Source of the DNA: a virus
Length of the DNA: 23,623 nt
Virus record (IMG/VR): IMGVR_UViG_3300035670_001258
Location: 1 to 23,623 of that record
Direction: 5' to 3' (one strand)
The notes beneath the pieces were generated by a model, which searched no databases, had not been told where the DNA came from, and saw only the letters and a list, made by a program, of their open reading frames with translations. How positions within the stretch are numbered: the first letter of the stretch is position 1; every line of letters begins with the position of its first letter. Below, one piece after another: positions 5,384 to 23,623 of the stretch. The position numbers and the translations under genes are program-made.

Positions 5384-5665
5384 TTATTGCCCTAACACGC
5401 TGCGTAAATGGCTGGTGGTAATCTTGGTGTCCGCCTGCAAATCACTGCGCATTGCACTTAACAGCCCCATCACTTCCTCCACGCCTGGGCGTTCGCGCAT
5501 CCGCATGAATTGAAACATCACGGCGTCGCTGGCGTAAATTGTCAGGTCGGACAAAATGTTTGCCAGTTCGCGCGCGGTATCGTTAGCGTCACGACCATCG
5601 GCCAATAGGATTGCCAGCACTTTTTGCGCGGCAATGCGGTAAACGTCTTGTTTGGTGATTTGCAT
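5384..5665 (-). CDS. Small tail protein in the tail-assembly-chaperone position
   Basis: The 93-residue product begins MQITKQDVYRIAAQKVLAIL. ATG 5665 is preferred over the upstream ATG at 5689 because AAGGA lies six to seven bases ahead of it and the extra N-terminus would fall inside a hairpin repeat. The sequence is predicted helical and has no enzymatic motif. It sits immediately before the tape measure, where lambda-type phages carry the tail assembly chaperone. I saw no slippery heptamer and no usable overlap with the gene before it, so a frameshifted chaperone pair is not supported. The chaperone role is therefore inferred from position. Confidence 0.7.
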   Translation of the reverse strand: MQITKQDVYRIAAQKVLAILLADGRDANDTARELANILSDLTIYASDAVMFQFMRMRERPGVEEVMGLLSAMRSDLQADTKITTSHLRSVLGQ

Positions 5666-5678
5666 ATATATTCCTTTT

Positions 5679-5787
5679 CTCGTTCCCACGCGCCGCGTGG
5701 GAATGCTGTATCACCGCGCTGCGGTGAGTGCTGAAACCGCTCCGCAGCGCGGAGCTTCCGCGTTACCACGCGGCGCGTGGTAACGAG
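5679..5787. repeat. Composite palindromic element with four hairpins
   Basis: Outer 22-bp arms (5679-5700 and 5766-5787) are inverted repeats with one mismatch, and each arm is itself self-complementary (CCACGCGCCGCGTGG type). Between them lie two more hairpins, CACCGCGCTGCGGTG (5712-5726) and GCTCCGCAGCGCGGAGC (5739-5755). The element separates two small tail genes. It resembles dispersed CGTTCCCACGC-type repeats seen in some proteobacterial chromosomes. Confidence 0.8.
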
Positions 5788-5801
5788 AGGCATCAGGCCG
5801 C

Positions 5802-5975
5802 TTAACTATACAACGTCTTCATGCCGTGCTTCTTATTCAGCGCATCCGCTTTCTTCTGCGCATCCGCCACGCTGGTAGCGCTGTCATAGGGCTTACCTTT
5901 GTGATTGACGCACGACTCTTTTTTACCGTTGACGGTTTTGAATCCGGCGGTGTATTCGGGTTTTTTCAGGCTCAT
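5802..5975 (-). CDS. Small phage protein of 57 residues between tail tube and tape measure
   Basis: ATG 5975 to TAA 5802 encodes MSLKKPEYTAGFKTVNGKKE followed by a lysine-rich segment ending NKKHGMKTLYS. A GAGAG stretch upstream is a weak ribosome binding site. It is basic and small, with one cysteine (ESCVNHK). Position directly after the tail tube gene suggests a tail assembly role. I do not recognise the family. Normal-looking coding sequence and conserved spacing support a real gene. Confidence 0.6.
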   Translation of the reverse strand: MSLKKPEYTAGFKTVNGKKESCVNHKGKPYDSATSVADAQKKADALNKKHGMKTLYS

Positions 5976-5998
5976 AGTTTTGCTCTCTTGTTAGTTAA

Positions 5999-14349: not shown

Positions 14350-14667
14350 TTATTTCTCCTTATGGAACAAACCATGAAACCACGCATACAACGCTTTGCC
14401 GGTTTCCCGTTCCTGCGCATCTGGTAGTTCGTCTGACAGTTGCACATCGCCTAGGCGCATATCAGCACATTGCAAACGGAAGAACTCGGTAAAATCGTAT
14501 TCGGTCATGGCCTCTATACTGGTTACATCGAACACGCACCTTTGCGCTGGGTGCATTTTCCATGCGTCTTCTGAATAGATGACACTAACCTTGCCTCGAT
14601 TTGTCTGGAGCAGATAGCCTTTGAGTCTGTCACCGTCATACCACGGGCGGTATTTATAGCGCATCAC
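14350..14667 (-). CDS. Hypothetical protein of about 105 residues
   Basis: The frame starts at GTG 14667 or ATG 14664. GTG is better spaced (nine bases) from AAGGA, and both overlap the end of the MuF gene (stop 14654), so coupling is likely. The sequence is rich in aromatic and charged residues (MRYKYRPWYDGDRLKGYLLQ, KALYAWFHGLFHKEK) with two cysteines. It has no recognised domain. Placement between MuF and gpG is not part of the standard Mu order, so it could be a small accessory or cargo gene. Confidence 0.65.
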   Translation of the reverse strand: MMRYKYRPWYDGDRLKGYLLQTNRGKVSVIYSEDAWKMHPAQRCVFDVTSIEAMTEYDFTEFFRLQCADMRLGDVQLSDELPDAQERETGKALYAWFHGLFHKEK

Positions 14668-15916
14668 GAATGTCTTTCCTTACCGGTTCGTACTTGACCT
14701 CAATTCCTATAGCGTCGAATTCACGCCAGGTGCGATCAGCGAGTATGGATGGGTTGTCATATAAATCATACAGCGCATTGGCTACCTCGCCAAGCTCGGC
14801 GCGAATACCCTTGCCAGCCAGCGCCGCTTGTGCGTATTCCACCTCTGCTTTCAAGGCCGCCAGGTGGAACAAGATATTGGCGCGGATGATTTTCGGCGTC
14901 GCCAGCGGGTTATGCGCGACATTGAAACGCGCCAGGATTTCAGTGATGTCCTTAACCGGGTCAAGCCCGGCGGCATATAGTCCGGTCAATTCGCGCAATT
15001 CATGCGCCAGCACAGCCGATCCGTAAATGCCGCCGCGCTGAATCATGGTCAAGATTTCAGGGTTATTCAGCGCATTGCTGTAGACTTCAATGGTTTTAAT
15101 GTCCTGCTTGTTCGCCAGCAAAGCGGGGTCTAATGGTCGCTTGGGTTTTCTGATAAATGACGGCAAGCCCGCGATCACGCCATCCAGCAACGCCGCCACG
15201 TCAGACCTCAGCGCGGGCGGGTATTTATCTGTCTTGTCCCGCAAGGCTTTGTTAATCCGCCGCACCTCGTCACCGCCAGGGCGGTAATCAAACCCTTCAT
15301 CTATCCCCTTACCCTGAAACGGCATTTGCTTACCGCTGGTGATGGTCAGGCCGCGTTTCTTTACTTCTCGCTCTGACAGGGTGAATTTTTTGCACGAACA
15401 AAACCAGCCGTTCTGTGGCGTGTTGGTATCCCACCAGGGGTCGTCCAATGGCACCACTTTATTGTCCCAGGCCAAATGCTCTTCACGCGGGCTGATGGAA
15501 TCGCCATGTTTATACAGGCCATAGGGCCGCGCCTTGCGTAATTCAGGGTCGGCCATCTGGCGCTCACGTCCGGCATTATAGGCTTGGCGCATGTTGGTGT
15601 CGTAGATAATCGCCGCCCGCCAGTTGCGGCCCTTGGCGGTTGTCTCGCCTGTCCAACCCGTCCAACCGCGCTTTTCGACAATGTGTAGAAAATCACGGCG
15701 GAACTGGTCTAAACCGATGCCGTCGGCAATCGCCTGGTCGGTAAACTGGAAAATATCATTCAGCACATCGCCTTGCGTCGCGCCCGCCACCATAAAGCCG
15801 ATGTCGTTTTGTTCGCGCTCCAGGTCGTTCCATTTTTCAGTGTCGATAGGGAGCTTGCCGCGAAAGTAGTCAATCGCCTCTTGAAAGGGTTGATCCCCGT
15901 ATTTAACGGCCATCAC
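14654..15916 (-). CDS. MuF-type head morphogenesis protein with unusual C-terminal domain
   Basis: The 420-residue protein has an N-terminal MuF core (about 60-215). This includes NWRAAIIYDTNMRQAYNAGR (98-117), the PYGLYKHGDSISPREEHLAW stretch and the C-x-C motif NGWFCSC (169-175). The MuF family is a minor head protein next to the portal and may be ejected. The C-terminal 190 residues look like a separate module after a proline/lysine-rich linker (about 253-265). They include AVLAHELRELTGL (301-313) and a long helical part ending in YEPVRKDIRDAL. The HELRE segment resembles a metalloprotease helix but lacks the second histidine of HExxH. Start is GTG 15916 or ATG 15913, abutting the upstream stop. 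Confidence 0.9.
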   Translation of the reverse strand: MMAVKYGDQPFQEAIDYFRGKLPIDTEKWNDLEREQNDIGFMVAGATQGDVLNDIFQFTDQAIADGIGLDQFRRDFLHIVEKRGWTGWTGETTAKGRNWRAAIIYDTNMRQAYNAGRERQMADPELRKARPYGLYKHGDSISPREEHLAWDNKVVPLDDPWWDTNTPQNGWFCSCKKFTLSEREVKKRGLTITSGKQMPFQGKGIDEGFDYRPGGDEVRRINKALRDKTDKYPPALRSDVAALLDGVIAGLPSFIRKPKRPLDPALLANKQDIKTIEVYSNALNNPEILTMIQRGGIYGSAVLAHELRELTGLYAAGLDPVKDITEILARFNVAHNPLATPKIIRANILFHLAALKAEVEYAQAALAGKGIRAELGEVANALYDLYDNPSILADRTWREFDAIGIEVKYEPVRKDIRDAL

Positions 15917-16105
15917 CTATGCCCAGCCTTTCTTGGCAATAACATCCTGAATGAATTTCAGATACTTATCCGCGTCAAGCCCAGGACGCTCCACCAAGCA
16001 AAAGAAAAGTGACGAGAAAAGTTGCTGCAACTTATCAGGGTCTTTGATTGGATGTACAATTCTCAGCACCTCAAGCGCAAATTGTTCTGGCTGTTGCTCA
16101 CTCAT
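15917..16105 (-). CDS. Small hypothetical protein of 62 residues
   Basis: ATG 16105 is preceded by AAGGA nine bases upstream. The product begins MSEQQPEQFALEVLRIVHPI and is mostly helical, with one cysteine. The frame ends at TAG directly adjacent to the MuF start, indicating coupling. No family is recognised. The same 11-bp palindrome that supplies its ribosome binding site also serves the divergent plus-strand gene 14 bases away. A plus-strand promoter for that gene lies within this coding region. Confidence 0.65.
   Translation of the reverse strand: MSEQQPEQFALEVLRIVHPIKDPDKLQQLFSSLFFCLVERPGLDADKYLKFIQDVIAKKGWA
16032..16060 (+). promoter_or_regulatory. Candidate sigma-70 promoter for the plus-strand zinc-ribbon gene
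   Basis: TTATCA (16032-16037), a 17-base spacer, and TACAAT (16055-16060). The -10 matches consensus at five of six positions and the -35 at four. The predicted start near 16067 gives a leader of about 53 bases. It lies inside the opposite-strand gene. Confidence 0.4.
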
Positions 16106-16108
16106 AAC

Positions 16109-16119
16109 AAGGAATCCTT
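16109..16119. promoter_or_regulatory. Palindromic shared ribosome binding site
   Basis: AAGGAATCCTT is a palindrome, so both strands read AAGGA. It serves as Shine-Dalgarno for the plus-strand ATG at 16120 (six bases away) and for the minus-strand ATG at 16105 (nine bases away). Only 14 bases separate the two start codons. Confidence 0.75.
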
Positions 16120-16452
16120 ATGATTGCTGAAATTAAAGAGTTTATTAGTATCTCTAACGACCTGTTAAACCTGCTCCAGGTAAGCAAAGACCTATTGCCT
16201 GAAGGCGTTGATAAAGATGAAATCACCGCCAAACTCGAACAGGCAAAACGCCAACTCGCGACAGCCGAGGCATCGACGGCGAAAGAATTAGGATTCCATC
16301 TATGCTCATGCTCATTCCCACCGCAAATCATGCTATTCAAAGTAGACATGAATGCTGATGTATGCCCGGCTTGCGGTTATAAAATATCGCGTTCATACAA
16401 CACACCAACAATAGCAACGACAGGCAGGCGGACAGACTTATCTGGTTATTGA
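16120..16452 (+). CDS. Plus-strand zinc-ribbon-like cargo protein
   Basis: This 110-residue protein is the only clear plus-strand gene within the structural operon. The N-terminal half (about 1-57) is helical and acidic, with KDLLPEGVDKDEITAKLEQAK. The C-terminal half has CSCSFPPQIMLF (about 66-77) and VCPACGYK (about 85-92), so two C-x-C/C-x-x-C pairs suggest a zinc ribbon. From memory, the CxCxFPPQIML motif occurs in short proteobacterial proteins of unknown function. It has its own ribosome binding site and a candidate promoter. The gene ends 7 bp inside the end of the portal gene, tail to tail. A moron-type gene expressed from the lysogen is inferred. Confidence 0.85.
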   Translation: MIAEIKEFISISNDLLNLLQVSKDLLPEGVDKDEITAKLEQAKRQLATAEASTAKELGFHLCSCSFPPQIMLFKVDMNADVCPACGYKISRSYNTPTIATTGRRTDLSGY

Positions 16453-18011
16453 CCTGACTGTACATCCCAACGCCCGGCCAATTCAGCGGCCATCAGCGCA
16501 TTACCCAGCATATTACCCAGCGCGGTTTTGTCCATACCGGGAAACAATCCAAGCAGTTCCTTTTTGAATTGTTCCAGGCTGTCCACACTATCCAGCAAGT
16601 CCCTAATCGGGTTGATGGTGGTTTCCAGCAGCAGCGGTTCAGCCTCGCGGCTCAGACGTTGCAGCCACGGGGCGAGGGTATCTCGCTCTTCGGCCTCGGC
16701 GAATTGCGGCCCCGCTTCGACAGGCTCAGCGGGCAGCGGGTTTTGTTCAATGCCGCGCCCAGGCGCGGGCTCCGGTTGCTCAGGAATGGTTTTGTACTCC
16801 TCCCCATACACCGTCGCCAGATATTCTCCCCCGGCTGCTTGCGCAAAACTAAAAATCCGCTGATCACGTTCCGAGCGTTGATTCAAATCTTCCGAACCGT
16901 CTACGCGCCGCCAGACTTTGGGCAAGGCCGCGCCGGGATAGTTCCAATCGCGCAACCAGCGCACCACGGAATTGTTGAACGTGCCACAAATGGTATCGGC
17001 ATCGGCTTTCAGGTATTCATCTTTCACCGCGCCGCGTAGCTCTTCACTACCCAGCTTGCCGGATGTGCCGGTCACAGATGCGGTTTGTCCGAGCAAAACC
17101 TCATGCACGGCGGATTTCATGGCGTTGTACAGTTCTAAATAATCCAGCGTGCCAGAGCGTGATGCCTCCAGCATGGACAAGGTCATGCCAGCCGGATAGA
17201 TGATGCCACTATCAAGCTGTACTGCCTGCACGGCTTCTAACAGCTTGGCTTTGATTTCATCGGCGCGGGCAATGTCCGCCTCACTGGTGGCGCGGTCAAG
17301 TTCCGCCGGGTATTCACCAGCCACGGTCGGACTGGCGAATTTCTCGGCATGAAGCAATCCGAACTTGAGCAGGTTCTTTTTGAACGTCACCGGCCAATAC
17401 AGCCAGTGCGCCAGGCCAATGCCATAGGGTTCGTCGTCATGGTCGGCACCGCATGAGAATGCCCAGAATTTCCGCGCCGGTAGCAGTTCGCCCAATGGGT
17501 TGCCGGTGGTGATGAGGCGTAACCTGAAATCACCATCAAAGATGAAGCGGCGGCGGTCGCGGACTTTCACGCCTTCTAGGCTAATCGTACCGCCGTCTTT
17601 CATCCACATGCACTCGCCCACGCCATAGCCGAAGAACAGCGCATACCACATTTTCTGGGTAAGGCCGTCAAAACCGCCCATTGATTGGCGCTTGGCGAAT
17701 AGCTTGTCGTCACTGCTGCTGTTGAGATTGGCTAATGCTTCCGTCAACAGATCGGCGATTTTCTTGTCGGCGCGTTTGTTGCCGCCGGGTTCTACTACCC
17801 ACTCGCACCCAATCAGCGCGTTAATGCGCTGCTCGACGCCGGTTTTAACATCGTTATCGCGCAGCACTTCACGATAGATTTCATAGCCCTCGCCACGCGC
17901 TTGTAACAGGCTGTCAGTCGGTGACAGCGGCATGTCCGGCAGCATCCATCCACGGGTAATGTCTCGCCCGTCTCTGGTGGTTGCGATTTCTGTTAATAGT
18001 GGTTTTTGCAT
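16446..18011 (-). CDS. Portal protein, DUF935 family (Mu gp29-like)
   Basis: The 521-residue protein has the DUF935 hallmarks: ITRGWMLPDMPLSPTDSLLQ near residues 18-37, YREVLRDNDVKTGVEQRINA near 46-65, CEWVVEPGG and FGYGVGECMWMKDGGTI. It then has RDRRRFIFDGDFRLRL and LLKFGLLHAEKFASPTVAGE. It also contains a TASVTGTSGKLGSEELRGAV stretch. Portal proteins form the dodecameric vertex for DNA entry and tail attachment. Near residue 428 a PAEPVEAG segment is encoded by a TTCGACAGGCTC palindrome inserted in frame, in a proline/glutamate-rich, low-constraint region. It lies next to TerL as expected. Confidence 0.94.
   Translation of the reverse strand: MQKPLLTEIATTRDGRDITRGWMLPDMPLSPTDSLLQARGEGYEIYREVLRDNDVKTGVEQRINALIGCEWVVEPGGNKRADKKIADLLTEALANLNSSSDDKLFAKRQSMGGFDGLTQKMWYALFFGYGVGECMWMKDGGTISLEGVKVRDRRRFIFDGDFRLRLITTGNPLGELLPARKFWAFSCGADHDDEPYGIGLAHWLYWPVTFKKNLLKFGLLHAEKFASPTVAGEYPAELDRATSEADIARADEIKAKLLEAVQAVQLDSGIIYPAGMTLSMLEASRSGTLDYLELYNAMKSAVHEVLLGQTASVTGTSGKLGSEELRGAVKDEYLKADADTICGTFNNSVVRWLRDWNYPGAALPKVWRRVDGSEDLNQRSERDQRIFSFAQAAGGEYLATVYGEEYKTIPEQPEPAPGRGIEQNPLPAEPVEAGPQFAEAEERDTLAPWLQRLSREAEPLLLETTINPIRDLLDSVDSLEQFKKELLGLFPGMDKTALGNMLGNALMAAELAGRWDVQSGQ
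16711..16733. repeat. TTCGACAGGCTC-core palindrome inside the portal gene
   Basis: CCCGCT and AGCGGG arms flank the core TCGACAGGCTC, forming a hairpin. Translated in the portal frame it gives PAEPVEAG. The core matches the copies at 6010-6024 and 13065-13104, whereas the arms differ but remain complementary. Confidence 0.8.
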
Positions 18012-18219: not shown

Positions 18220-19599
18220 TTAATGCCCTCTAAAATCATTGCGCCCGCGCAGACTGCCAAAGCCGCGGCCAAGCCAGCCAAGCACACCGCCCGCTGTGCT
18301 TGTCGAGGCGTTATCAGCGCCAATACGCCGCCCGGCGGACATAAAGTTAGGATCCACGGGGCGATCATGCCCGGCGGCATAACAGGCCAGGAAACACGCC
18401 CAGGCGCGGTCGGCGTGGCCGTCGCCCGTGCCATCGGCAACAAAGCGCGGCGCGCCGCTGGCGGTTTGTTCTTTCTTCAGGCTATGCAGGTCGGCACGGA
18501 TTGCGGTATCCATTGGTACCCGAATCAATCTGTCCTCAAAGCGTGACTTGGCAGCGTTCGCCAATTCCAGCTTGGACGTGGTACTAAACAACACGCCCTC
18601 GACACGCCCAGCGCCGTATTGGCGTTGATAGTCTTCTACCACCTTCTCGCCCATGCCGGTTTGGTCTACACACAGCCGCGCAACCCGATAGCGCTTAAAT
18701 GCCTCGGCAACAATCGCATCTTGTTCCGCAAAGCTGATTCTTCGCCGCGCTTCAACAAGCCGAGTCCACAGTACGTCACCGACCAACTCGGCGGCCCAGA
18801 GTACCCAGAGGTCATTGCGCCGGGCGATGTCCAAGCCCATGAACACCGGGCCGCCTTGGTACAGTTCCGGCAGTCCGGCTTGGTCATGCTCTACCCCATT
18901 GATTAAATCGTAACTCAACCACGCGCTGGCTTCGTCAAGCCATTGCAATTCGTACTCTTGCGCCCAGGCGTCCGGATCTCCCAGCGCGGCTTTAAGCTCG
19001 GCAACATCACGGCGCAGGCCATCGGCAACGGCTTGGTAAATATCCGTCTGGTGACGGCTCCAGTTGTCGTCTTTGCCCGTCATCAGGTCATAGAATTTAT
19101 TTGACTTGCCGTTCGGAGTGGAAACCACTCGCAGCTTATGACCGGCGGATATGACCGGGAACAAGGCCGCCCAAATCTTGCGGCTGTCGTGATGGAACGC
19201 AAATTCGTCCAAGAACACATTGGCGCTAAAACCACGCGCCGTGTCTGGGTTGGCGGGTAGCGCGGTAATGCGCGAGCCGCCGGGGAAAATCACTTCATGC
19301 GTTTTGTAAACGCCAGATTCGCTGCGGTATTCAGAATCCAGCACTTGAATAGCTAACTGCATGGCTTGGGCGTGCTTCTTCACACCCTCGTCAATCGCTT
19401 CTTTGGCTTGGCGTTCGCCGCGACTGAGAATCACCCAGCGGGCACGGCGGCCTTTGGCTTCGGCTTCCAGACAGTCGTTGACGATTTCCAGCGTCGTCGT
19501 GAACGTCTTACCCGTTTGCCGTGCTTGCATCCCGATTTTGAAACGCGCCTCATCTTTAATCCAGCGGCGCTGGTATGGGTAGATGTTAATGGCTGGCAT
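18220..19599 (-). CDS. Terminase large subunit (Mu gp28-like)
   Basis: The 459-residue protein has Walker A ARQTGKT (26-32), Walker B VFLDEFAF (128-135) and the coupling motif STPNGKSNKFYD (160-171). The C-terminal nuclease has acidic motifs at GLDIARRNDLWVLW (D257), CVDQTGMGE (D312) and TGDGHADRAWA (D393, D397). TerL pumps DNA into the head through the portal and cuts it. AGGA lies six bases ahead of ATG 19599. The stop TAA (18220-18222) falls in a GGGGAGATTTA sequence that resembles the end of the palindromic repeat family, so the glycine-rich tail (GWLGRGFGSLRGRNDFRGH) may have been altered by insertion. Confidence 0.95.
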   Translation of the reverse strand: MPAINIYPYQRRWIKDEARFKIGMQARQTGKTFTTTLEIVNDCLEAEAKGRRARWVILSRGERQAKEAIDEGVKKHAQAMQLAIQVLDSEYRSESGVYKTHEVIFPGGSRITALPANPDTARGFSANVFLDEFAFHHDSRKIWAALFPVISAGHKLRVVSTPNGKSNKFYDLMTGKDDNWSRHQTDIYQAVADGLRRDVAELKAALGDPDAWAQEYELQWLDEASAWLSYDLINGVEHDQAGLPELYQGGPVFMGLDIARRNDLWVLWAAELVGDVLWTRLVEARRRISFAEQDAIVAEAFKRYRVARLCVDQTGMGEKVVEDYQRQYGAGRVEGVLFSTTSKLELANAAKSRFEDRLIRVPMDTAIRADLHSLKKEQTASGAPRFVADGTGDGHADRAWACFLACYAAGHDRPVDPNFMSAGRRIGADNASTSTAGGVLGWLGRGFGSLRGRNDFRGH

Positions 19600-19613
19600 A
19601 GTGTTTCCTGGTG

Positions 19614-19854
19614 TAAATCCCCCCTAGCCCCCCTTTCTTAAAGGGGGGAATGTAAATCCCCCCTAACCCCCCTTTCTTAAAGGGGGGGACGGTGGCGGCG
19701 AAGCCGCCAAGCTTTAGCCCCCCTTTCGTAAAGGGGGGGACGGTGGCGGCGAAGCCGTCAAGCTTTAGCCCCCCTTTCATAAAGGGGGGGACGGTGGCGG
19801 CGAAGCCGCCAAGCTTTAGCCCCCCTTTATGAAAGGGGGGTTGGGGGGATTTAA
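19614..19854. repeat. AAATCCCCC-family cluster with 51-bp tandem units
   Basis: Two C-run/TTTCTTAAA/G-run palindromes are followed by three 51-bp units (ACGGTGGCGGCGAAGCC...CAAGCTTTAGC) starting at 19689, 19740 and 19791. Each holds a GGCGGCGAAGCCGYC hairpin and a CCCCCCTTT...AAAGGGGGG palindrome. The final GGGGGGATTTAA supplies the stop of the small terminase gene (19851-19853). Confidence 0.9.
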
Positions 19855-20393
19855 AGCCCATACAATTCCTGCTGTACACGGCGCAGCGTGTCAATATCCA
19901 GCCCTGACGAACCGGCCTTGGCTTCAGTCTCCAGCGCGTCCAGCTTCTCTCTGATTTTCTGCTGAAAAAGCTTTTGCTGCACGCTGGCTTTGCCCAGGTC
20001 AGCCACCACGCGGCCAATCTTGGCGAACTCGCCGACACCAACCTCTTCGCCTTCCGGTACGCGCACCATGCCCAATAGCTCATAGGCTTTTTGTTGGGTG
20101 AGTGCGATCAGCATGTCATTCACGCTGCCCTCGTCATCGCCCAGTTCTTTAGCCACCACGCGAGCCTGTTCACGGAAAATACGCAGCGCTTCCAGTTCTT
20201 GTTGAAAGCGCTTGCCGTGATAGGCCACGGTGGCACGGGCGCGCACCAGGTGTTCCAGCCCTGCCGCCTCTAAAATCGTTTCAATCTCATCGGCGATGGC
20301 GTCGTAGTTCTGGAAGTTGTTGCGAATGAATACCGCCTTCACCCTGTCGCGCACGGACTCGTCCGTGATTTGCGTGATGAAGTTAGGACGCAT
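19851..20393 (-). CDS. Terminase small subunit, DUF3486 family (Mu gp27-like)
   Basis: The 180-residue protein begins MRPNFITQITDESVRDRVKA with a helical N-terminal region, consistent with the DUF3486 DNA-binding part. The middle has LEALRIFREQARVVAKELGDDE and QKAYELLGMVRVPEGEEVG, and a C-terminal coiled region (QQKLFQQKIREKLDALETEA). It overlaps the upstream gene by an ATGA and has GGAG eight bases upstream. It precedes TerL, as gp27 precedes gp28 in Mu. It would recognise the packaging site. The last codons come from a palindromic repeat end. Confidence 0.88.
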   Translation of the reverse strand: MRPNFITQITDESVRDRVKAVFIRNNFQNYDAIADEIETILEAAGLEHLVRARATVAYHGKRFQQELEALRIFREQARVVAKELGDDEGSVNDMLIALTQQKAYELLGMVRVPEGEEVGVGEFAKIGRVVADLGKASVQQKLFQQKIREKLDALETEAKAGSSGLDIDTLRRVQQELYGL

Positions 20394-21430: not shown

Positions 21431-21721
21431 TTCAAGCATGGACAGTTGATTATCTAGCTCATGGCGGGATGGGGGGCGGCCTGACAGCATCTTATCCAGG
21501 CTGCTTGCCGACACGCCAAACTGGCGACAGAATTCAAGCTTGTGCCTGCTCCACGCGGCGCGGATGTAGTGGACATAGCGGGAATATTCGGAGTACGGGG
21601 AAATATACACCTGCGCACCGCGCCAGTCACGGCGGATGTCGTTTAGTACCTCGTGAACATCGCCGCCTGCTTTAAGGCGCTGTTCCAGGTCTTCAAAAAA
21701 GTCGTGCGCGGGTTCTGCCAT
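21428..21721 (-). CDS. Mor/C-like transcription activator, tentative
   Basis: The 97-residue product has a helical, acidic N-terminus (AEPAHDFFEDLEQRLKAGGD), a strand motif WRGAQVYISPYSEY (about 33-46) and a C-terminal helix-turn-helix (HKLEFCRQFGVSASSLDKML, about 60-79). The middle-strand then HTH order resembles Mor/C activators of Mu, in which GG-x-x-x-Y-I-P precedes the HTH. It is shorter than Mor (129) and C (140). Position before a terminator and an activator-like dyad at the head of the late operon supports this. There is no Shine-Dalgarno; the promoter-like sequence upstream would start transcription at or next to the ATG, suggesting leaderless translation. Confidence 0.6.
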   Translation of the reverse strand: MAEPAHDFFEDLEQRLKAGGDVHEVLNDIRRDWRGAQVYISPYSEYSRYVHYIRAAWSRHKLEFCRQFGVSASSLDKMLSGRPPSRHELDNQLSMLE

Positions 21722-21728
21722 GCGGTTA

Positions 21729-21757
21729 ATTATGGTTTATCGTGGTAATAAATTCAA
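21729..21757 (-). promoter_or_regulatory. Candidate sigma-70 promoter giving a leaderless mRNA
   Basis: Minus-strand TTGAAT (21757-21752), a 17-base spacer and CATAAT (21734-21729). Only seven bases (TAACCGC) separate the -10 from the ATG at 21721, so the start of transcription falls on or next to the start codon. Confidence 0.5.
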
Positions 21758-21784
21758 TGTTTTTATGTACATGAATCCTTTTTC

Positions 21785-21904
21785 AAATCCCCCTAAATCC
21801 CCCTTTTGCAAAGGGGGACTTTTAAATCCCCCTAAATCCCCCTTTTGCAAAGGGGGACTTTTACATTCCCCCCCTTTATGAAAGGGGGGTTAGGGGGGAT
21901 TTTA
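21785..21904. repeat. AAATCCCCC-family repeat, two tandem left units plus right end
   Basis: Two copies of AAATCCCCCTAAATCCCCCTTTTGCAAAGGGGGACTTTT, then a C-run, TTTATGAAA, GGGGGG and TTAGGGGGGATTTTA. The last TTA (21902-21904) is the stop of the antirepressor gene. The GCGGC hairpin is absent. The left end stops about 27 bases before the regulator's -35. Confidence 0.88.
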
Positions 21905-22513: not shown

Positions 22514-22540
22514 ATTGAACTCCATCTATGTGAGTGGAAA

Positions 22541-22580
22541 CAAAAAAGGCGCTACCGTTCCCAGCGGTAGCGCCTTTTAT
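22541..22580. terminator. Perfect-stem intrinsic terminator in the antirepressor leader
   Basis: GGCGCTACCG (22548-22557) pairs exactly with CGGTAGCGCC (22565-22574) around a seven-base loop. A-rich and T-rich tracts on both sides allow function in both directions. On the minus strand it ends in TTTTTTG and lies between the promoter-like sequence at 22579-22607 and the antirepressor ribosome binding site. Confidence 0.88.
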
Positions 22581-22607
22581 TTTGCATGTACTAAATAACA
22601 GTGTCAA
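22579..22607 (-). promoter_or_regulatory. Candidate sigma-70 promoter toward the antirepressor
   Basis: Minus-strand TTGACA (22607-22602, perfect consensus), a 17-base spacer and CAAAAT (22584-22579, four of six). The predicted start falls at about 22572, inside the first arm of the terminator hairpin. Confidence 0.5.
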
Positions 22608-22628
22608 AATTCACATATCGTCAGCAGT

Positions 22629-22641
22629 CATCAATTTGATG
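22629..22641. promoter_or_regulatory. Candidate operator, 13-bp palindrome over a -35 box
   Basis: CATCAATTTGATG is a perfect palindrome about a central T; flanking AGCAGT (22623-22628) and ACTGCT (22645-22650) extend the dyad with a small offset. It covers the -35 of the plus-strand promoter, a usual repressor position. The binding protein is unknown. Confidence 0.45.
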
Positions 22642-22664
22642 ATTACTGCTATATTGTTTATATT
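22636..22664 (+). promoter_or_regulatory. Candidate sigma-70 promoter for the 66-residue plus-strand gene
   Basis: TTGATG (22636-22641), a 17-base spacer and TATATT (22659-22664). It points away from the minus-strand promoter at 22579-22607, forming a divergent control region of about 90 bases. Confidence 0.55.
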
Positions 22665-22686
22665 GACACACAACGAAGAGAATGCC

Positions 22687-22887
22687 ATGACAACCGATAC
22701 CGTAAAACTCCACGCGATACACGAAGTCGTTAGTGCCTGCTTGCAAAGCGGGGATGATTTTGATGTATTTCGTGAGAAATTATCTTTGCAGCTTGACGCC
22801 ATTTCGGCAGGCCATCAGGCACATCCCATTGGCGATGAGACAACGGGCCAAGAAGCCTTGCCACAAAATCCAGCAACAGCGAATTAA
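22687..22887 (+). CDS. Small plus-strand protein of 66 residues from the control region
   Basis: ATG 22687 is favoured over the longer frame from 22534, which would begin inside the terminator and upstream of the promoter. GAAGAG lies seven bases ahead. The product (MTTDTVKLHAIHEVVSACLQ, then SGDDFDVFREKLSLQLDAI) is helical and acidic with a disordered, proline-containing tail. It does not resemble a known repressor. It overlaps the minus-strand gene at 22730-23077 by 158 bases, so one of the two may be spurious or they may be antagonistic. Confidence 0.55.
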   Translation: MTTDTVKLHAIHEVVSACLQSGDDFDVFREKLSLQLDAISAGHQAHPIGDETTGQEALPQNPATAN

Positions 22888-23077
22888 CCACCCGGCGGGC
22901 GGCATTTGAACAGTCGCCCCAGCTTTTCGCGTTCTCTATTGTCAGAAGAAAAGACAAAGCCTCGTCCTCGGCATCATGATCGGCTTCATTCATGATGCCG
23001 GGGGAATTTAACCAGGGTTTAACCTTAAGCAGTTCATACATGAGTTCACACGCTTTTTCTGAATTTACTGTTGCCAT
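22730..23077 (-). CDS. Hypothetical protein coupled to the DUF559 gene
   Basis: The 115-residue frame starts at ATG 23077 in a TAATG overlap with the stop of the DUF559 gene, and GGAGG lies about ten bases upstream. The first 70 residues (NSEKACELMYELLKVKPWLN, AEDEALSFLLTIENAKSWGD) look like a normal helical protein. The C-terminal 50 residues are antisense to the plus-strand 66-residue gene and may be a chance extension. Function is unknown. Coupling argues that the N-terminal part is real. Confidence 0.5.
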   Translation of the reverse strand: MATVNSEKACELMYELLKVKPWLNSPGIMNEADHDAEDEALSFLLTIENAKSWGDCSNAARRVVNSLLLDFVARLLGPLSHRQWDVPDGLPKWRQAAKIISHEIHQNHPRFASRH

Positions 23078-23436
23078 TATATTTCCGCCTCCAACTCCTT
23101 AAAAATACACTCCACCACCGCATCAATCTGATTCAACACCTCATGATTGCTAAACCGCAACACCCGCAAGCCTAGCGCATTTAGGTACGCATCACGCGCC
23201 TGGTCATTGGCACGGTGAACCGGTTCCCAGTGTTGCGAACCGTCTACCTCTATCACCAGCTTCGCCGCCGGCGCGTAAAAATCCACAATGTAGTTGCCAA
23301 CCGGCTTTTGGCGGTAGAACTGTACGCCCTTCAGTTGCTTACGCCGTACCCGCGCCCATAGCTTCTGTTCGGCTTCGGTCATGTTGCTGCGCAGCTTGCG
23401 CGATGGTTGTTTTAGTTTGGTGTTGTAGTGTTCCAT
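23077..23436 (-). CDS. DUF559 family endonuclease-like protein (Vsr/PD-(D/E)XK fold)
   Basis: ATG 23436 is chosen because the longer frame to 23511 would translate the palindromic repeat. The 119-residue product has KLRSNMTEAEQKLWARVRRK, GVQFYRQKPVGNYIVDFYAP and LVIEVDGSQH, then RDAYLNALGLRVLRFSNHEV. This is the DUF559 signature, related to the very short patch repair nuclease fold, with candidate metal ligands D (IVDF) and E-x-D (IEVDG). DUF559 genes are common in bacterial chromosomes and mobile elements. It may be prophage cargo or, if the phage boundary is near, host DNA. Confidence 0.88.
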   Translation of the reverse strand: MEHYNTKLKQPSRKLRSNMTEAEQKLWARVRRKQLKGVQFYRQKPVGNYIVDFYAPAAKLVIEVDGSQHWEPVHRANDQARDAYLNALGLRVLRFSNHEVLNQIDAVVECIFKELEAEI

Positions 23437-23457
23437 TAAGTTCTTCGCTGCTCCGTC

Positions 23458-23623
23458 AAATCCCCCCCAACCCCCCTTTTCTAAAGGGGGGGAGTAGGCA
23501 AATCCCCCCAACCCCCCTTTTCTAAAGGGGGGGAGTAGGCAAATCCCCCCAACCCCCCTTTTCTAAAGGGGGGCTTTTAAAGCGCGGCGAAGCCGCCCTG
23601 TCCCCCCCTTTGAAAAAGGGGGG
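23458..23623. repeat. AAATCCCCC-family cluster, three tandem units, runs off the window
   Basis: Three 41-42 bp units of AAATCCCCCCAACCCCCC, TTTTCTAAA, a G-run and AGTAGGC. They are followed by CTTTTAAAGC, a GGCGAAGCCGCC hairpin and CCCCCCCTTTGAAAAAGGGGGG at the right edge. The unit consensus differs from the copies at 18026 by AACCCCCC for TAAATCCCCC. Confidence 0.9.

Follow-up and report, generated by a model that had tools for sequence, protein, structure and literature searches.

Two small genes of a Mu-like phage, here called Z and P, form one cassette that is carried as mobile cargo, a moron, at the junction of the portal and MuF genes. By analogy with a characterized phage system, Z may be a competition or defense protein expressed in the lysogen and P an antidote expressed late, which we consider a realistic possibility somewhat short of a probable one. 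The DNA analyzed was a 23.6-kb virus record (23,623 nucleotides, hereafter the window) comprising the late region of the phage on the minus strand, within which the terminase, portal (PF06074, E of 3e-77), and MuF (PF04233) genes were assigned by profile search of the window. The portal protein (Portal_Mu; 16446..18011, minus strand) is the upstream late gene and the MuF head protein (14654..15916, minus strand; Phage_Mu_F, 1e-12) the downstream one, and the interval between them holds two ORFs. Z (16120..16452, plus strand) is opposed to the late operon and encodes a 110-aa protein comprising a predicted two-helix hairpin and a CxC...CxxC zinc-ribbon-like tail. P (15917..16105, minus strand) is co-oriented with the late operon as the divergent partner of Z and encodes a predicted three-helix protein of 62 aa.

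The original prediction described a plus-strand gene with paired cysteines, fully opposed to the late genes between portal and a small ORF, with a 7-bp convergent overlap with portal. All of this was confirmed: the ORF is intact, with homologues that retain the cysteines invariantly, and the Z and portal genes overlap by exactly 7 bp (16446-16452). The small ORF itself, overlooked as a partner at that stage, is the conserved gene P. Start to start, Z and P are separated by 14 bp, a gap containing a perfect palindrome, AAGGAATCCTT (16109..16119). This palindrome provides the Shine-Dalgarno core for both genes, lying 5 nt before the ATG of Z (AAGGA, 5 nt upstream) and 9 nt before the ATG of P. 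At its other end, the TAG stop codon of P directly abuts the MuF start codon(s), as TAG-GTG-ATG. The complete cassette spans 536 bp and is small and simple to test. There is no terminator-like site between portal and MuF, so late read-through antisense to Z is to be expected, as had been proposed. Elsewhere in the window, a 117-aa plus-strand ORF at 22534-22887, running against the minus-strand genes and overlapping another ORF (22730-23077), is a second possible inverted gene. PPFxKGG-type stretches recur on both strands (19586-20083, 21720-21881, and 23077-23511) and resemble a dispersed repeat family; one is joined to a DUF559 endonuclease-like ORF (PF04480, 8e-39).

The surroundings of the cassette identify it as an insertion. 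Portal and MuF touch, with no insert, in the Mu-like phages B23, AFS-2018a, and YPCBV-1, and among 17 related viral contigs with a readable junction, the junction was closed or had a gap under 40 bp in 10. Others held different short inserts, and those intact inserts judged plausible were co-oriented with the operon. By eye, the junction looks like a cargo slot in L045-L048, L051, and L055, with inserts all co-oriented that included a methyltransferase-like ORF (L047), small cysteine-rich ORFs (L048 and L051), and short ORFs elsewhere. The GC content of the Z-P module is 0.444, against 0.552 for the window, placing it in the lowest 0.5% of equal-sized windows. Together with the spread of Z over transposons, integrons, and other phages, these observations bear out the earlier description of Z as cargo.

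Mobility was seen in a contig from a Beijerinckiaceae MAG (L032, the contig of locus L006), outside any visible phage. Here, a complete IS1595-type transposon at 177-2719, with perfect 23-bp inverted repeats and an 8-bp target duplication (CAAACGCT), carries P, Z, a DUF4145/MtlR-like gene, and the IS1595 transposase (PF12762, 9e-28). An intact IS1595-type transposase also adjoins P in L004, and the apparent end of another was seen in L011. The window copy resembles such passengers to the extent that the L032 transposon carries the same Z-P pair, there alongside the DUF4145-like gene, but it was rejected as an IS1595 element itself, as the window has neither a flanking transposase nor terminal inverted repeats. 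A further set of Z relatives, in Vibrio (L007 and L008) and Paraglaciecola (L010), was judged by eye to be flanked by attC-like repeats; in L010 (274-790), the repeats on either side of Z measure about 70 bp and are nearly identical to each other. These copies are like integron cassettes but differ from the window cassette in having Z without P and in belonging to a separate clade: the integron and inovirus copies of Z form a P-less sister clade.

Homologues in phages, bacterial genomes, and viral contigs establish that the Z ORF is a real gene. Relatives were found in four viral contigs (L003, L004, L012, and L026) and seven bacterial genomes (L005-L011), and a protein of a Vibrio inovirus, the only hit of the phage search, matched Z by tblastn (5e-11). 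On profile rescoring, L003, L004, L012, and the seven bacterial genomes all scored 1e-30 or better, and L026 scored 9e-35. The cysteines C62-x-C64 and C82-x-x-C85 are invariant in 12/12 aligned relatives, within an invariant core of LG-x-x-LCxC-x-x-PPQ-x-ML ... C-x-x-C. The family is rare: the strict motif occurred in seven of about 85,000 genomes, and Z in four of 2.9 million viral contigs scanned (the window not counted). A scan of 197 Vibrio genomes returned two already known copies and one fragment, 397 further genomes from a Pseudomonadota sample gave no relative, and tblastn found none on plasmids. Among the Vibrio copies, that of L008 (5972-6315, in an integron-type cassette) is broken by an in-frame TAG, and L027 holds a 42-residue C-terminal fragment.

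AlphaFold2 modeled Z as a two-helix hairpin (residues 2-24 and 30-56) followed by a small cysteine-bearing ribbon, with a mean pLDDT of 79 and short strands at the ribbon of pLDDT about 80. The model thus has two cysteine pairs suited as metal ligands on a predicted ribbon fold, as would be expected of a zinc ribbon. A TraR/DksA-type zinc finger was considered and rejected: none of the 12 members had such a Pfam match, and window Z had no NCBIfam match. Pfam, NCBIfam, and PADLOC yielded no usable match for Z, PHROGs gave matches at chance level only, a search of the PDB by sequence returned nothing below an E of 0.08, and Foldseek against PDB and BFVD returned nothing significant. VIA-align Z-scores of up to 7.7 spanned the helical hairpin only, at the level of any helical pair. 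For P, there was no usable match in Pfam or NCBIfam, none in PHROGs, none in the phage search, and nothing significant from Foldseek against the PDB; the PADLOC search covered Z alone. Judged by these searches, Z and P appear to belong to no known family.

P is conserved as the partner of Z. Diverged copies lie head-to-head with Z, on the minus strand, in five further loci (six including the window): L003 (879-1097), L004 (934-1113), L006 (5781-5990), L011 (about 5790-5990, assuming a GTG start), and L012 (5796-5996, tied to the others only by its position and overall make-up). The start-to-start gaps are correspondingly tight, at +14 bp in the window, +5 in L003, -2 in L004 (where the Z start is uncertain), -2 in L006, -8 in L011, and -2 in L012, and the start codons of Z and P share a CATG in L004, L006, and L012. 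In profile searches against the 2139 ORFs from all loci, the top non-self match of window P alone was L003 P (E of 0.007), and the L003 P profile found the P proteins of the window (0.015) and L011 (0.038), while those of L004, L006, and L011 matched one another at 1e-5 to 1e-11. The three helices of P were predicted with a pLDDT of 88. The Z copies that have P beside them belong to one subclade, and in the Z tree, which has several long end branches and excludes the broken L008 copy, a branch with support of 97/98 splits copies with P from those without. Five Z relatives occur without P, including the integron cassettes and the inovirus. In L026, the gene facing Z in place of P (5551-5733, minus strand), again with starts sharing CATG, has a 60-aa product in which two membrane helices are likely.

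We then examined orientation relative to late operons, as the original prediction had called for a tally of inverted copies of the family in phage operons. Z is inverted in both clear late-operon loci, the window and L012, though this is a small sample. L012 (L031) is an unrelated tailed phage, in which Z is opposed to the virion genes and lies between a late-activator gene (phrog_836) and a neck gene. P is late-oriented in both of these loci; directly adjoining MuF in the window and sharing 4 bp (ATGA) with the neck-protein gene in L012, it is placed for late co-expression. In L004 (L030), Z is opposed to the head genes at their downstream edge, beside the transposase. In L003, a P2-like record as judged from its ORFs, Z lies in an accessory stretch outside the late operon. 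Z is likewise outside the late operon in the Mu-like phage record L026, which has a transposase (phrog_310) and a protease (phrog_328); there it is co-directional with downstream head genes and has minus-strand ORFs on both sides.

Z had also been credited with a candidate promoter of its own (16032..16060, plus strand), which falls inside P. A candidate sigma-70 site does exist there (TTATCA-17-TACAAT, 9/12), but it is not clearly above chance: three such promoter-like sites occurred in the 1 kb scanned versus 1.3 ± 1.3 in shuffles, and when the 200 bp upstream of Z were scored with a weight matrix, p was 0.07. Across the loci, no promoter for Z was significant, and a P-promoter-like site in L003 had a p of 0.01 as one of 17 tests. 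Since the head-to-head starts touch or overlap, any promoter of either gene would lie within the other, and the Z and P transcripts would have to be complementary around both start sites, which makes antisense or collision effects likely.

From this layout, we infer the timing of expression, a role for Z in defense, and antagonism of Z by P. Read from a putative promoter of its own on the opposed strand, Z would be made in the lysogen while the late genes are silent, where it would most likely shield the lysogen from competing phages through superinfection exclusion or defense. P, read from the late message just before MuF, would be present only once the prophage goes lytic and would most likely neutralize Z, sparing the phage self-inhibition. 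Late read-through across Z, and the way the two 5′ ends face each other, should bring a further shut-off of Z by antisense or collision. During lytic growth, then, Z is probably neutralized by P and perhaps also shut off as the original prediction had it. In the precedent discussed below, the opposed gene is not silenced; a partner among the late genes counteracts its protein instead, an alternative that the overlooked P fits. Defense-like genes occur near several Z loci (SIR2, FRG/PDC-S15, Mrr-type nuclease, HEPN-like, and PLD/DrmC-like), although integron, mobile-element, and prophage cargo regions are commonly rich in such genes, whatever the gene at hand. More tentatively, and to our minds with some doubt, the pair may amount to a previously undescribed defense/counter-defense cassette of head-to-head genes with overlapping starts, a self-timed switch set against the late operon with Z lysogenic and P lytic. 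Such a cassette would travel among tailed phages that are not related to one another and among IS1595 transposons, with Z alone in integrons and a filamentous phage. Several observations weigh against a lysogen defense with a late antidote. Chief among them, P rides with Z in the IS1595 transposon, a setting in which it is hard to see what an antidote made from a late operon would do; Z stands outside the late operon in L003 and L026, with an unrelated membrane protein as its neighbor in the latter; the candidate promoter of Z is weak; and no detectable sequence is shared with the proteins of the precedent.

The presence of P in a transposon is better explained if P and Z are a toxin-antitoxin or addiction pair, or if P is a regulator. 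In the former case, Z would be toxic or growth-regulating and P its antitoxin, maybe repressing the divergent promoters, with phage and transposon as mere vehicles. A small, tightly linked pair on both a phage and a complete IS1595 transposon suits this proposal, which accounts for P staying with Z outside phages, and toxin-antitoxin-like genes were seen by eye near Z in L003 and L011. The five P-less relatives, integron cassettes and inovirus among them, argue against it, as Z is then not generally lethal alone and the pairing not obligatory. A divergent, start-to-start order is also unusual for toxin-antitoxin operons, no known antitoxin family was matched by P, and overall we think addiction rather unlikely. 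Alternatively, P could be a small transcription regulator of Z, and Z a lysogenic-conversion protein that uses its hairpin and zinc ribbon to act on a host target, RNA polymerase for example. The divergent arrangement is a classic regulator-target layout and the modeled fold of Z would be in keeping with such a role, but P has no helix-turn-helix or other DNA-binding family match and, as two phages have it among their late genes, would act late only; regulation of this kind seems unlikely to us. Finally, that Z-P is a neutral or decaying hitch-hiker, retained because the portal/MuF junction tolerates inserts, is improbable: related contigs do hold different small inserts there and Vibrio copies of Z are broken (the L008 stop codon and the L027 fragment), but in the window both ORFs are intact with cysteines retained and clean gene-to-gene joints, and the pairing has been kept across very divergent copies.

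Returning to Z as a lysogen defense countered by P, two known systems provide context. BstA-aba is reported to be a prophage-encoded defense with linked self-immunity (PMC8585504; also discussed in PMC10884400); its self-immunity is a DNA element, whereas the candidate antidote of Z is a partner protein. The closest working analogue of Z/P is Tab/anti-Tab of the Pseudomonas Mu-like phage JBD26, from which an opposed gene active in the lysogen within a Mu-like late operon is already proven (PMC10884400). Tab runs opposite to the late operon, is expressed from its own promoter in the prophage, and keeps invading phages from assembling their tails. Anti-Tab is carried on the late message and neutralizes Tab while the phage goes through its own lytic cycle; no deletion that removed just the antidote was obtained (PMC10884400). 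Like Tab, Z is small and points against the late operon of its Mu-like phage, so that it can be expressed only independently of that operon, and like anti-Tab, P is by its gene position a small partner on the late message, joined to the neighboring late gene. Both pairs sit between packaging or head genes. Homology was rejected, as BLASTP and profile comparison gave nothing above chance for Z against Tab or for P against anti-Tab, and Tab as translated lacks cysteine pairs, unlike Z. The geometries also differ: Tab and anti-Tab are tail-to-tail with a 47-bp overlap, between the small and large terminase genes, whereas Z and P lie head-to-head, with portal and MuF on either side. The phages reported to have Tab homologues are all close to JBD26 (PMC10884400), whereas Z/P also occurs in transposons and Z in integrons. 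If our reading is true, a small opposed gene paired with a partner in the late operon would become a searchable signature for hidden prophage defenses, and the lysogen-on, lytic-antidote design of Tab/anti-Tab, known from one phage group, would gain a second instance, built from unrelated proteins in a different geometry.
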